From: Prochlorothrix hollandica PCC 9006 = CALU 1027
Lineage (GTDB): Bacteria; Cyanobacteriota; Cyanobacteriia; Prochlorotrichales; Prochlorotrichaceae
Assembly: GCF_000332315.1 (NCBI RefSeq)
Contig: NZ_KB235941.1
Location: 175,438-239,437, forward strand
DNA length: 64,000 bases
Reading direction: 5' to 3'
The stretch's first letter is position 1, and every line of letters starts with the position of its first letter. Below the pieces are notes generated by a model. That model was not told where the DNA came from. It saw only the letters and a list, made by a program, of their open reading frames with translations, and searched no databases. The translations under genes were made by a program, and so were the position numbers. Shown here piece after piece: positions 3,922 through 32,038 of this stretch.

Positions 3922-4525
3922 GGCTTTAGGGCACAGATAAAGGGCAGGTCAAGGAAGGGCAGATGAATCTTAAATTCTGGAATTCTAGCCTGAAAGTCTA
4001 GCCTGAAAGTCTAGATGACTTTTGGCGATCGGGGTTTGGAGGTTAATCCGTGGGGCTAATTCCAGAATCCAAACCTTAAGCAACGTTGATCGCCCCAGAG
4101 GACTCTCCTTCCCCCCAACCGATTTGTTCCCTTTAGCCTCCTCCTCCTGATAGGAACAGGAACTGGTCCATACAGGATTAACCGAAGCTGGGTAAGATAG
4201 AACAATCTTTTGGGGTTGTCGGGTAGGGAGGGTTAAGGGTAGGGAACCGTCATCTTGCGCCACGCCAATTCCCCCTATCCCCCTATTTTGCCAGAGGTTT
4301 TGCCAGAGGTTTTGCCAGAGGTTTTGCCAGAGGTTCTCCCTAGGAGCATCTTAATTCCTTGGGGACAATCCTTGGGACTGTTCAGTTCCCCACGGTCAAC
4401 CGAATCTCCAGGGTCTATCCAGATCGAGGCAACGTCGTGGGCAAGATCCCCAGTCCCTGGGCGATCGTCCCCCGTTTGGCAGAGTGTCCCAGGATCCCAT
4501 CCACGATCGAACGCTAGGAGTCTGC
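3922..4525. other. 604-bp intergenic region between divergent genes
   Basis: Holds a short direct repeat of GCCTGAAAGTCTA (about 3987-4013) and a four-unit tandem repeat listed separately. The short reading frames here are not convincing as genes. The promoters of the minus-strand TPR operon and the plus-strand antiporter must lie here, but I cannot pick clear -10/-35 boxes. Confidence 0.4.
4286..4333. repeat. 12-bp tandem repeat, 4 units (TTTTGCCAGAGG)
   Basis: Four perfect head-to-tail copies of TTTTGCCAGAGG, of the STRR type known in filamentous cyanobacteria, about 190 bp upstream of the antiporter start. Confidence 0.9.
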
Positions 4526-5798: not shown

Positions 5799-5909
5799 CA
5801 AAGCGGGATGCACCCGTCCCCCAAGCCGAAAATTGCCCCGCTCCACGCCCCGCTCCACGCCATACTACCCAGGAACACATACCACCCAGGAACAAAGGAG
5901 AACCTAACT

Positions 5910-7229
5910 ATGGCCAAGTCCATTATTCAACTGGTTGATGAGTTGCCAGCGGATAACATCACGGTAAAAGTCTTGAAGGCATTGGACTTCGTGGCTCCAG
6001 GACAATGGAGCAATATGGTGGGCTTTGATCAAACCGTCATCGCTCTGACCGGAGATAGTGATCCCAAGGTTTTGAGCCGTGTGCGCGATCGCGCCGCCGC
6101 CCTCTATGAAGATCCCAGCCAGGGGTATAAAGGGGCGATCGGTCTCTATCAAACCGTGGATAAAGCGGATGTGGCCATGGCCACCGCTGCCCTAGCCAAC
6201 AAGGTGGGGGAGAAAATTTCTGTCCTGTCGTTTTTAAGCAGCATTACCCCCAAGGCCGACACCACCCAAACCGTGGATCTGCTGCTGAAGATCGCCGTAG
6301 AGGTTTTGGCCTTTTGCAAACTCAATGGCATCCCCCAACCCAACCCCCAAGCCTTTGTCGCTGCCCTGCAACAAAACTACAGCGATGCTGCCCTGATGCG
6401 CATGGTGGCCCTGGTCTGCATTGATGGTCTCTTGCCCCTAGGACCCAATTTCCTGGGGAAAATCCATGAAACCCTGAAGGGCTTAGACCTAAGTAGCATT
6501 ACGGGTAACCCGGTGTTCTCTGGCATTAAAGGGGATTTACCCGGTGGGGGAACCGAGGAAAAGGTTGGCTTTCTAACCCAGAGTTTTGGGTCCGTGGAAG
6601 GCTGGGTTTCCGGTTTTGTCGATCGCACGAACATTACCCCCCAACGCATTAGCGGTGGCATTGGCCGTTTTATTGACATCGCCGATGATAACTTGGACTT
6701 TATCGCCGCGTTTTTAGACCAAACCACCAATTATTTTGAACATACCGGCATCCAGACCGTTGCCCGTCATCTGATCCTGGCCGTCTATCCCCAGGTTAAA
6801 ACAGAGCTGGCAGCAGAAGCAGAAGCAAAAGCCCAAGCCCAGGCCGCTGCCCCCTCCGGCCAACCCGGACAATACAGCATTGGTCAAACGGTGGAAGGCT
6901 GGGATGAGGATGAGGAAGACTGGTATGAAGCCAGTGTGCTGAAGGTGCGGGAGAAGAAGGGGAAAACCCAGTATTTCCTCCACTATGCAGGCTATGGTGC
7001 CTCGGAAGAAGAGTGGGTTTGGGCTGAAGATGTGCGGGTGCGGGACTTAGACAACAGTGATCAACAGGGCTACAGCCTGGGCCAGACGGTTAAGGTTTGG
7101 GACGATGAGGAGGAGGAATGGTACTCGGCCACGATCCAAGAAATCCGGGGCAAGCAGTATTTTGTCCATTATTGGGATGACGATGCGGGTGAGGACGATG
7201 AATGGCTAAATCTGGACGATATCACCTAA
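5910..7229 (+). CDS. Two Tudor-knot/chromo-barrel domains fused to a helical cyanobacterial domain
   Basis: 439 residues from the ATG at 5910, preceded by AAAGGAG. Residues about 1-320 form a mainly helical domain that I do not recognise. A short Ala/Gln/Glu linker follows (AEAEAKAQAQAAA). Two tandem domains of about 55 residues end the protein, each of the chromo-barrel pattern: SIGQTVEGWDEDEEDWYEA...YFLHYAGY...EEWVW and SLGQTVKVWDDEEEEWYSA...YFVHYWDD...DEWLN. The WY...HY...EW aromatic positions are those of eukaryotic MOF/MRG chromo barrels, which bind modified peptides or nucleic acid. The role in a bacterium is unknown. A strong terminator follows at 7349-7388. Confidence 0.75.
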   Translation: MAKSIIQLVDELPADNITVKVLKALDFVAPGQWSNMVGFDQTVIALTGDSDPKVLSRVRDRAAALYEDPSQGYKGAIGLYQTVDKADVAMATAALANKVGEKISVLSFLSSITPKADTTQTVDLLLKIAVEVLAFCKLNGIPQPNPQAFVAALQQNYSDAALMRMVALVCIDGLLPLGPNFLGKIHETLKGLDLSSITGNPVFSGIKGDLPGGGTEEKVGFLTQSFGSVEGWVSGFVDRTNITPQRISGGIGRFIDIADDNLDFIAAFLDQTTNYFEHTGIQTVARHLILAVYPQVKTELAAEAEAKAQAQAAAPSGQPGQYSIGQTVEGWDEDEEDWYEASVLKVREKKGKTQYFLHYAGYGASEEEWVWAEDVRVRDLDNSDQQGYSLGQTVKVWDDEEEEWYSATIQEIRGKQYFVHYWDDDAGEDDEWLNLDDIT

Positions 7230-7348: not shown

Positions 7349-7388
7349 AACCCCACAAGGCACCTAGCACAAGGTCTTGTGGGGTTTT
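7349..7388 (+). terminator. Rho-independent terminator after the Tudor-knot gene
   Basis: Perfect 11-bp stem AACCCCACAAG / CTTGTGGGGTT around a 16-base loop, followed by TTT. It lies 120 bp after the stop at 7229, beyond the family D remnant. Confidence 0.65.
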
Positions 7389-7792: not shown

Positions 7793-8254
7793 TTAGCTGC
7801 GGTTCATGACTTCGATTAACTGATCCACATAGACATTAATCATGCGGGCGCTATCGGCGGGGAAGGTTTCTTCCACAACACCCCGCAGGTGGGTATAGGC
7901 AGCATGGGCAGCATCTTTGCGCTTAAAGGCTTTCATCATGGTGTCCATCCACAGCACAAATTCTTCATAGAAGGCGTGTTCATCATGCTTAAGGATGCAA
8001 AGGCTGATGTAGCGCATGATATCTGTAATGTCGCGCTTACAGATTTGGCCATGCTGTTGCAGCATTTTGGCATAGACAGCCGTCATTTTGCGCAGGGTTT
8101 TGAGCACCACCTCATCGGCGTGAGTCTGAATCAGTTGATAGGTTTTGAGGCGCAGGGCATGGGACTGCATATACTCTTCGAGGGATCGCAGCTCTTGATC
8201 GTTGAGGTAGCGATCGTCCACCGCCGTAAGATTGCGGGTCAGGGTGCTATTCAT
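7793..8254 (-). CDS. Phycobiliprotein-like (allophycocyanin superfamily) protein
   Basis: 153 residues from the ATG at 8254. The all-helical protein follows the phycobilisome-protein pattern: a YLNDQELRSLEEYM N-terminal helix like allophycocyanin (RYLDAAELNRLKDY), then ICKRDITDIMRYISLCIL at residues 71-88. The latter aligns with the bilin-binding stretch ACIRDLDYYLRYATYAML, so Cys72, Arg74, Asp75, Arg81 and Tyr82 are kept. The rest is divergent, and there is no second subunit, linker or lyase gene nearby. A light-harvesting role is therefore not assured; a sensor or scavenger role is possible. Upstream in-frame ATGs up to 8359 would add a non-homologous extension, so I prefer 8254. Confidence 0.7.
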   Translation of the reverse strand: MNSTLTRNLTAVDDRYLNDQELRSLEEYMQSHALRLKTYQLIQTHADEVVLKTLRKMTAVYAKMLQQHGQICKRDITDIMRYISLCILKHDEHAFYEEFVLWMDTMMKAFKRKDAAHAAYTHLRGVVEETFPADSARMINVYVDQLIEVMNRS

Positions 8255-8483
8255 AGAAAGGTGTCCTGGCAAACTAACAACAGACTCAAAGGCGGGAATT
8301 CCGATTCCTGGGAATGACAACGCCATGGGATTCACAATTCCCAGGGTAGCCATGGCCAAGGGCCGGTTTTCTTCCCCTCTTACTTAGTAACTGATCCTTA
8401 GCTTGAAATAGACTCTGGGGAAAAACCACCAAACGCAAAGGATTGATACCTTTCTTCATAAAACCTCGCAATTGATCCCACTC

Positions 8484-9604: not shown

Positions 9605-9672
9605 GGGGACTGGAGCAACCTGGACTGGAGCAACCTGGACTGGAGCAACCTGGACTGGAGCAACCTGGGAAC
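9605..9672. repeat. 15-bp tandem repeat, 4 units (CTGGAGCAACCTGGA)
   Basis: Four head-to-tail units just upstream of the presumed fni start. They are open in the fni frame, so they would add a GCSSP repeat if translation began at 9695. Confidence 0.88.
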
Positions 9673-13328: not shown

Positions 13329-13844
13329 CTAATGATCTGATTCCTTGTCCAGGTTGCCAAGGTTGCCCTGCTCCCGACCCTGGAGCGCCGTCTGAATGCC
13401 CAAGGCTAATAATCCTAGGGCAGTAATGGCAAACAGGAAGGTGGCCAAGGTGCAACTGCCCACCACTAAGGTTCGCACCGCTGCCCCAATGTTGGCAGCA
13501 ACGTAGCTTTTGGCGGCGATCGGCTTGGCTGCAAAGGACTGGGCAATGGAATGGGTCAGCAGGTACAGCAGAAAGGAAAAGCCCCCCGCCATCAGGGATC
13601 CACTGACGCATTGCCACAGAGTCGGCGGTTGTTGGCCATTGGTTTGGGCCGCACTAGTTTGGGTAGCACTGGCCTGGGCAGCACTGGTCTGGGCAGCACT
13701 GGTCTGGGCAGCACTGGCCTGGGTAGCACTGGTCTGGGTAGCACTGGTCTGGGCAGCACTGGCCTGGGTAGCACTGGTCTGGGTAGCACTGGCCTGGGTA
13801 CTAGTGTCTAGGCTGGAGGTGGGTGTCGGGATGGGCGAGGTCAT
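13329..13844 (-). CDS. DUF3082-like membrane protein with repeat-derived N-terminus
   Basis: 171 residues. Residues about 15-72 are a low-complexity run of SATQTSAAQ/SAAQASATQ units encoded by a tandem DNA array. The C-terminal part (about 75-165) has two membrane helices (CVSGSLMAGGFSFLLYLLTH and ATFLFAITALGLLALGIQ) and matches the cyanobacterial DUF3082 pattern. Function unknown. The repeat array appears to have extended the N-terminus in frame. Convergent with the UspA gene. Confidence 0.65.
   Translation of the reverse strand: MTSPIPTPTSSLDTSTQASATQTSATQASAAQTSATQTSATQASAAQTSAAQTSAAQASATQTSAAQTNGQQPPTLWQCVSGSLMAGGFSFLLYLLTHSIAQSFAAKPIAAKSYVAANIGAAVRTLVVGSCTLATFLFAITALGLLALGIQTALQGREQGNLGNLDKESDH
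13655..13805. repeat. 15-bp tandem repeat array inside the DUF3082 gene
   Basis: About ten units of GCACTGGCCTGGGTA / GCACTGGTCTGGGCA. The unit length is a multiple of three, so unit number can change without breaking the frame. Confidence 0.9.
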
Positions 13845-14857: not shown

Positions 14858-15535
14858 TTACAGGCGATAGTCGTCTTTACACACTCCTAAGATCTGTCGA
14901 TCGTTGTCGCTAACTTCATCTAAGGGCTGGAAGCCTTCTAGGTCAAAGGGGGCCAACAGATCATCTGAGGCTTGGGGATCCCCGCTGTCCAGGGCTACGG
15001 CATAGGAGGAGGTTTCAGCGCTATAGCTATCGGTGATGGTAAGGGCAAGGCGATCGGCCTCCAGTGACCCTTGAAAACAGTCGAAGGACGAGAAAGGCAT
15101 ATAAAACGCCCCCACCATCTGGTCAGCCTGGGCTTCAAAGACCATATAGACTTGACCGATTTCTTCCGGCTGGGACGATTGGCCATACACATAGACACCA
15201 TCCCGAAGACGCTGGGTAGCGCCGGTTGCGATCGCCTGGGTTGCGGTGGTCTCTGGGCCGATCGCGTCTGGGCCGATCGCGTCTGGGCCGATCGCATCTG
15301 GGCCGATCGCGTCTGGGCCGATCGCCTCAGGCATAGCCGGTGCAGGATTCATTCCCGGAACGGTAACCGCAGTTGGGCTGGCCGGAGTCGTTGCAGGCAT
15401 CGCCTGGGCAAAACTCCGGGGGGCGGTGGTTGCCAATAGTCCCAGGGCTGCGATCGCGACAACCGGAAAGCGGGCAACCGTGGCCAAGGGTCGGATCGGA
15501 GCCTGATGTAGGGGGTGGGTGGGGAAGTAGTGCAT
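14858..15535 (-). CDS. Secreted cyanobacterial hypothetical protein with AIGPD repeats
   Basis: 225 residues from the ATG at 15535, about 10 bases after AGGA; the longer frame begins at TTG. A signal peptide ends near SFAQA (about residue 44). Residues about 70-95 are five tandem AIGPD/AIGPE units from a 15-bp repeat. The C-terminal domain (about 105-225) begins LRDGVYVYGQSSQPEEIGQ and contains YMVFEAQADQMVGAFYMPFS and one Cys pair (C from FDCF, C from GVCK). I recognise it only as a cyanobacterial protein of unknown role, probably periplasmic or lumenal. Confidence 0.65.
   Translation of the reverse strand: MHYFPTHPLHQAPIRPLATVARFPVVAIAALGLLATTAPRSFAQAMPATTPASPTAVTVPGMNPAPAMPEAIGPDAIGPDAIGPDAIGPDAIGPETTATQAIATGATQRLRDGVYVYGQSSQPEEIGQVYMVFEAQADQMVGAFYMPFSSFDCFQGSLEADRLALTITDSYSAETSSYAVALDSGDPQASDDLLAPFDLEGFQPLDEVSDNDRQILGVCKDDYRL
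15256..15332. repeat. 15-bp in-gene tandem repeat carrying GCCGATCGCGTCTGG
   Basis: Five units, each with a GATCGC core close to the HIP1 octamer, coding AIGPD in the secreted protein. Confidence 0.88.
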
Positions 15536-27948: not shown

Positions 27949-28034
27949 CATTTCTTTAGAAAGATTGACAAAGATTGGTGACAATCAAAGAAACGTATCC
28001 GAGACTACCAGCGTTCCCCACGGGATACTGACCC

Positions 28035-28125
28035 TCCAACCCGATCCCTCCAACCCGATCCCTCCAACCCGATCCCTCCAACCCGATACCTTCAACCCGA
28101 TACCTTCAACCCGATCCCTTCACCT
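28035..28125. repeat. 14-bp tandem repeat (CCCTCCAACCCGAT), 6 units
   Basis: Six units with drift (the last ones read ACCTTCAACCCGAT), ending about 18 bp before the ccdA start. Confidence 0.9.
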
Positions 28126-31919: not shown

Positions 31920-31976
31920 CCCCGCGATCGTGACCGACCCTTTCCCCTCTCGGTCATCTTCTCAACAGGTCATTAA

Positions 31977-32038
31977 ATAGGACGACCAAACAGGACGACC
32001 AAACAGGACGACCAAACAGGACGACCAAACAGGACGAC
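31977..32038. repeat. 13-bp tandem repeat (AGGACGACCAAAC), 5 units
   Basis: Five nearly perfect units in the 205-bp gap before the membrane protein at 32125. Confidence 0.9.

Follow-up and report, generated by a model that had tools for sequence, protein, structure and literature searches.

The window analysed here, a stretch of 64,000 nucleotides from the genome of Prochlorothrix hollandica PCC 9006 = CALU 1027 (contig NZ_KB235941.1), contains a gene whose product carries two real Tudor/chromo barrels, both of the SH3-like barrel fold, behind an N-terminal helical core. Animals, plants and fungi employ barrels of this type as readers of methylated proteins. The core belongs to a cyanobacteria-wide family that is new in this analysis, and the paralogue branch of the window gene appears to have left the lipoprotein locus of that family and carries exchangeable tails. 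Chromo barrels in a cyanobacterium have already been published, as the accessible text of Kaur et al. 2018 (PMC5906684) indicates, and the surprising part is therefore their apparently cytosolic setting on a core that swaps its tails. The function that we lean towards is that of a cytosolic adaptor, in which the core would be docked by its tail onto a peptide that is basic and may be methylated.

The gene and its two barrels

The reading frame is uninterrupted, and the whole protein aligns end to end with its homologues at 58-65% identity (Table 1). The ATG at 5910 was preferred over an upstream ATG at 5808 because an AAAGGAG motif lies nine bases upstream of it and because the first residue of the homologues corresponds to the residue encoded from this codon; the start at 5808, which is that of the mechanically called ORF, is without support. 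The hairpin found about 120 bp past the stop codon, which is followed by TTTT, is a probable terminator. The protein begins with MAKSIIQLVDELP and has no secretion signal by the hydropathy criterion, a hydrophobic N-terminal stretch being absent (the highest 19-residue mean within the first 40 residues is 0.78 on the Kyte-Doolittle scale); we infer that the Tudor-tailed protein is probably cytosolic. A search for plasmid-borne copies of the gene found none.

Table 1. Features of the gene and its flanks, in positions of the window
Feature	Position	Strand	Basis or remark
AAAGGAG, likely ribosome-binding site for the ATG at 5910	5894..5900	+	direct reading of the sequence
Whole gene, helical core and two Tudor/chromo barrels	5910..7229	+	439 aa; stop codon 7227-7229
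Core domain, residues 1-300, all helical	5910..6809	+	models, family search
Ala/Gln-rich linker, residues 301-323	6810..6878	+	second half flexible; length varies among homologues
Barrel 1 (D1), residues 324-378	6879..7043	+	Pfam Tudor-knot, alignment with MRG2 (4pl6), model strands
Barrel 1 cage: W331, Y339, Y359, Y362; fifth position E366			
Barrel 2 (D2), residues 388-439	7071..7226	+	Pfam Agenet, cage counts, model strands
Barrel 2 cage: W397, Y405, Y421 kept; lost positions hold D424, E428			
Hairpin CCCCACAAG...CTTGTGGGG, then TTTT	7351..7388	+	direct reading; 16-base loop

The surroundings of the gene have features of their own. Just downstream, on the opposite strand (7793-8359), lies a gene whose product is a divergent member of the phycobilisome family (PF00502, 2.5e-18). 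Short tandem repeats occur by the dozen across the whole window, many with a period of 11-17 bp (for example 4286-4335, 9607-9668, 13640-13800, 15252-15325, 28032-28119, 31975-32038 and 59930-60060). Several repeats fall within ORFs, in multiples of 12 or 15 bp, and give peptides such as IGPDA, TSATQ and GCSSP. A 66-bp tandem repeat at 58428-58926, inside the minus-strand ORF 57439-59301, matches at 97% in its best part and encodes repeated 22-residue segments resembling EFTGQVLGETVEGTTKVMGGAI.

The barrels were recognised by sequence and by predicted fold. The Pfam Tudor-knot model (PF11717) matched the whole protein with 31.8 bits and the C-terminal 120 residues alone with 36.4 bits, against a curated cut-off of 20.8, and the same 120 residues matched Agenet with 30.7 bits (cut-off 27) and SMN_Tudor with 21.5 bits, slightly below its cut-off. 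Tudor-knot, Agenet and MBT were each matched at E <= 0.01 by all 16 of the 16 homologous tails. The closest PDB match was the Arabidopsis protein At1g02740/MRG2 (4pl6, E=7.5e-5) in a single-sequence search and L3MBTL3, with its MBT repeats, in a family-profile search (E=3.3e-10). An AlphaFold2 model computed on the homologue alignment (mean pLDDT 83) has helices throughout residues 1-312 and then two four-strand sheets, ordered as in a chromo barrel, with strands at 327-332, 337-349, 352-359 and 368-371 in barrel 1 and at 393-398, 403-413, 416-421 and 431-434 in barrel 2; within the linker between core and tail, residues 314-319 have pLDDT < 50. With this model, Foldseek retrieved tandem-Tudor structures at E values from 1.8e-4 to about 1.5e-3, namely ZGPAT, the UHRF1 TTD, FXR2, the SHH1 SAWADEE domain and the ADCP1/AGDP3 Agenet domains. 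The model does not reproduce the placing of one barrel relative to the other that is seen in the matches (TM <= about 0.45, rmsd about 10-15 Å; for the UHRF1 entries TM <= 0.42 and rmsd about 11-12 Å), which is expected because the linker between the barrels was modelled with low confidence (pLDDT < 50).

The presumed cage positions 2-5 of barrel 1 were taken from the printed alignment with MRG2 (4pl6), in which Y339, Y359, Y362 and E366 pair with Tyr, Tyr, Trp and Trp, and position 1 (W331, and W397 in barrel 2) was assigned by spacing only. The pattern of the tail, W-x7-Y...Y-x-x-Y, is one that we take to resemble the SMN Tudor cage. Across the 31 homologous tails, aromatic residues make up 90% of the ten cage columns and 11% of the remaining tail columns. 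In the window protein, barrel 1 reads W-Y-Y-Y-E, with aromatics at four of the five positions, and barrel 2 reads W-Y-Y-D-E, an incomplete cage from which two of the five aromatics have been lost; position 4 of barrel 2 (D424 here) is Tyr in 28 of the 31 homologues and position 5 (E428 here) in 25. The nearest relative, at locus L058, has W-Y-Y-Y-E in barrel 1 and W-Y-Y-E-E in barrel 2. The loss in barrel 2 is common to the window protein, this relative and few others, and most homologues keep all five positions. Because positions 4 and 5 are lost, barrel 2 is doubtful as a methyl reader in this protein.

These results confirm the observation made in the first-pass annotation of this gene and support its interpretation in part. 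It had proposed two tandem chromo-type barrels with acidic stretches, joined to a large helical domain, and the barrels, the stretches as quoted and the all-helical region were all found. Its assignment to the MOF/MRG type is too narrow, since models for MBT, Agenet, SAWADEE and chromo domains are matched by the tails as well. The aromatic pattern that it saw in both barrels holds for the invariant W/Y positions and breaks down at D424 and E428 of barrel 2 and at E366 of barrel 1. As for conservation of the cage among cyanobacterial homologues, which it had suggested checking, the cage is mostly kept in the family and incomplete in barrel 2 of the window protein.

A core family that exchanges its tails

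No Pfam or NCBIfam model matched residues 1-300, no PDB entry was matched by the sequence profile of the core, and Foldseek returned no solved structure with a matching fold (best E 0.13); its weak matches to unrelated helical proteins were set aside as noise. Modelled alone, the core is all helical and confidently predicted (pLDDT 87, pTM 0.86). When the whole protein was searched against the phylum, 126 of 386 genomes (125 of the 377 good ones) gave a match, nearly always through the core and mostly in proteins of about 300 residues without a tail. The host's own second copy (G000:C1:950822) is of this tail-less kind.

A lipoprotein gene in the same orientation immediately precedes the core gene at 18 of the 26 tail-less loci examined, versus none of the 24 tailed loci. 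The lipoprotein has 170-200 residues, with a Cys after a hydrophobic N-terminus, and gave no significant Pfam match. Examples of the lipoprotein gene are L111:9697-10230(-), L117:7713-8303(+), L102:9234-9788(-) and L107:8154-8678(+). Lipoprotein and tail-less core apparently form a two-gene operon conserved across distant cyanobacteria, although their products may be separated by the membrane. In the host genome the lipoprotein was not found in a single search with one query, a weak result at that sensitivity. A gene beside the pair at five loci, which resembled a methyltransferase on inspection by eye, was set aside, a 110-residue fragment of it having matched no Pfam family.

The tails were placed on a maximum-likelihood tree of 95 cores. 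The C-terminal tails, all on one paralogue branch, are tandem Tudor in 31 sequences, FHA in four (L069, L071, L072 and L048, from Limnothrix and family f35) and BON in one (L002/L070, genome G050); the domain matches of the alternative tails had E values of 1.3e-15 for FHA and 2.5e-6 for BON. The tailed proteins form a single clade (100/98) whose nearest kin are tail-less paralogues. A single gain of each tail suffices to explain the tree, and tandem Tudor, FHA and BON were apparently each gained once. As a single branch the Tudor group has moderate support (91/77), and within the tree the window protein pairs with L058 (99/96). The Tudor-tailed form is conserved in many Nostocales; at the loci examined, it has no conserved neighbours beyond near relatives. 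A 150-residue form in Sphaerospermopsis aphanizomenoides (L055:5992-6441), in which about the first 97 core residues are in frame with barrel 2, is consistent with an internal deletion. This form was rejected as a second architecture and treated as a single shortened copy, because its two finds belong to one genome.

What the tail may recognise

In the mechanism that we favour, the tail would bring the N-terminal core to a target. This core is paralogous to a widespread cyanobacterial protein whose gene usually follows immediately behind that of a lipoprotein. The cage of barrel 1 (W331, Y339, Y359 and Y362) would most likely hold the side chain of a Lys or Arg residue, which may be methylated, within a basic peptide on the partner, and barrel 2, with its cage damaged in this lineage, would most likely supply an extra acidic docking surface and rigidity. 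Peptide binding and an adaptor role are the most likely interpretation of this arrangement; the term adaptor comes from domain logic only, since the core has no known fold. The presence of an FHA domain in the place of the tail in another lineage supports the idea of a recognition slot. FHA domains bind phosphothreonine in the cytosol, and this fits a cytosolic recognition role for the slot. Going further, the branch may be a family of cytosolic adaptors that fit a single conserved core with exchangeable tails, which read different protein modifications (methylated or basic groups by chromo/Tudor, phosphothreonine by FHA), a generalisation that we offer tentatively.

Methylation of the ligand is possible. 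Methylated lysine, which the first-pass annotation had named as an example of the basic ligands favoured by the acidic parts, was a guess: no SET-domain methyltransferase was detected in the host genome. SET genes occur in 5 of 13 genomes with the Tudor form, versus 9 of 12 relatives without it, and so are not commoner with the Tudor form. A SET methyltransferase as a companion of the Tudor form was consequently rejected, there being no association and no such gene in the host.

Alternatively, the tail could be a pure electrostatic clamp whose acidic barrels bind basic proteins by charge, such as ribosomal proteins, nucleoid proteins or the tails of RNA polymerase, with the aromatic residues merely forming the hydrophobic core of each barrel. 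Residues 320-439 carry a net charge of -23, all 31 tails are strongly acidic (-16 to -27), the cage of the window protein is incomplete, and the host's lack of a detected SET methyltransferase would also agree with binding by charge. However, W331, Y339, Y359, Y362 and their counterparts in barrel 2 are near-invariant, with positions 2-5 aligned to the cage of MRG2, and most second barrels have Tyr at the fifth position, as counted above. We consider binding by charge alone rather unlikely.

It could also be argued that in this lineage the core alone matters and the tail has become a remnant, either neutral or in decay, given that the barrel 2 cage is eroded in the window genome and in its nearest relative and that an internally shortened form exists in Sphaerospermopsis. 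However, the tail is of full length, has no frameshift and is 49-57% identical to the tails of its homologues, and the damage to the cages of the window protein is limited to 3 of 10 positions. Furthermore, purifying selection acts on the tail in the relatives that were tested, nine close pairs with dN/dS of 0.03-0.21 for the tail and 0.03-0.09 for the core. Decay is improbable on these results.

The plant MRG protein found as the best single-sequence PDB match raises the idea that lateral transfer brought the barrels in from a eukaryotic donor and that they act on the nucleoid much as in chromatin, but that match is biased, because the Tudor proteins in the PDB are mostly eukaryotic. When the tail profile was run against the 386 genomes of the phylum, related tandem barrels turned up in other cyanobacterial proteins, which argues against such a transfer. 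In small Nostocales proteins of 130-150 residues, two barrels come after a signal-peptide-like start (L099/L170, L161, L168, L169 and L172; E=2e-6 for L099 against the window tail), and caspase-like Peptidase_C14 proteins end in two barrels (L163, L165 and L166; Pfam 2.5e-8 for L163). These carriers suggest that the barrel pair is a module which became attached to several partners. In addition, eukaryotic chromo-like domains are argued to derive from bacterial ones in the accessible text of Kaur et al. 2018 (PMC5906684), and we regard an origin by transfer from a eukaryote as very improbable. The caspase-like ORFs have 380 (L163, minus strand), 361 (L165, minus) and 434 residues (L166, plus), and in L163 and L165 no signal peptide is obvious, in contrast to the published secreted forms and to those in L087/L095. 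Finally, binding of nucleic acid, for which the description of PF11717 ('RNA binding activity-knot of a chromodomain') and the FMRP/FXR tandem Tudors among the fold matches might be cited, is the least credible explanation of the tail, because all tails are strongly negative in charge, which speaks against binding of RNA or DNA.

If the tentative picture of one core with exchangeable readers is true, the branch would represent a bacterial modification-reading module, with the tandem chromo pair as a bacterial intracellular reader. The exchange of tandem Tudor, FHA and BON tails points to a recognition slot, and it opens the function of the core family through the ligands of its tails.

Relation to known chromo-like and Tudor proteins

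The first-pass annotation had called the arrangement poorly characterised. As far as the accessible text goes, cyanobacterial chromo-like domains had already been described by Kaur, Iyer, Subramanian and Aravind (Kaur et al. 2018, PMC5906684), and in that text, which was all that literature searches for the present architecture returned, no mention of this core was found. According to the same accessible text, bacterial chromo-like domains occur 'consistently' in secreted proteins, in caspase-like, peptidase, SHD1 and TPR contexts, so that the caspase architecture and the secreted forms were already known, and they are proposed to recognise modified amino groups in peptides, with eukaryotes proposed to have used such domains later inside the cell for chromatin reading. 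The conserved and probably cytosolic two-barrel protein described here makes it possible to test intracellular reading directly in a bacterium. The domains of Kaur et al. 2018 (PMC5906684, accessible text) and those of the window protein have in common the chromo-like SH3 barrels, the conserved cage aromatics, an often tandem arrangement and their occurrence in cyanobacteria. In contrast, the proteins described there are secreted, whereas the window protein shows no sign of secretion and carries its barrels on a helical core.

With MRG15/EAF3/MRG2 and MOF/TIP60 the window protein shares the barrel fold and, in barrel 1, the spacing of cage positions 2-5. It differs from them in being tandem and strongly acidic and in having a broken cage in barrel 2, and no MRG or MYST acetyltransferase domain was matched in it by Pfam. 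The tandem Tudor, Agenet and MBT readers, that is the UHRF1 TTD, FXR, SHH1 SAWADEE, ADCP1 and L3MBTL, which gave the best fold and profile matches, likewise have at least two barrels in tandem, but the placing of the barrels in the model does not agree with theirs and the cyanobacterium has no histone substrate. The small secreted and caspase-like cyanobacterial proteins (L099, L161, L168, L163 and L165) carry a related tandem barrel pair, and it is the partners that differ, the pair standing either behind a signal-peptide-like start alone (L099, L161 and L168) or beside a Peptidase_C14 domain (L163 and L165).
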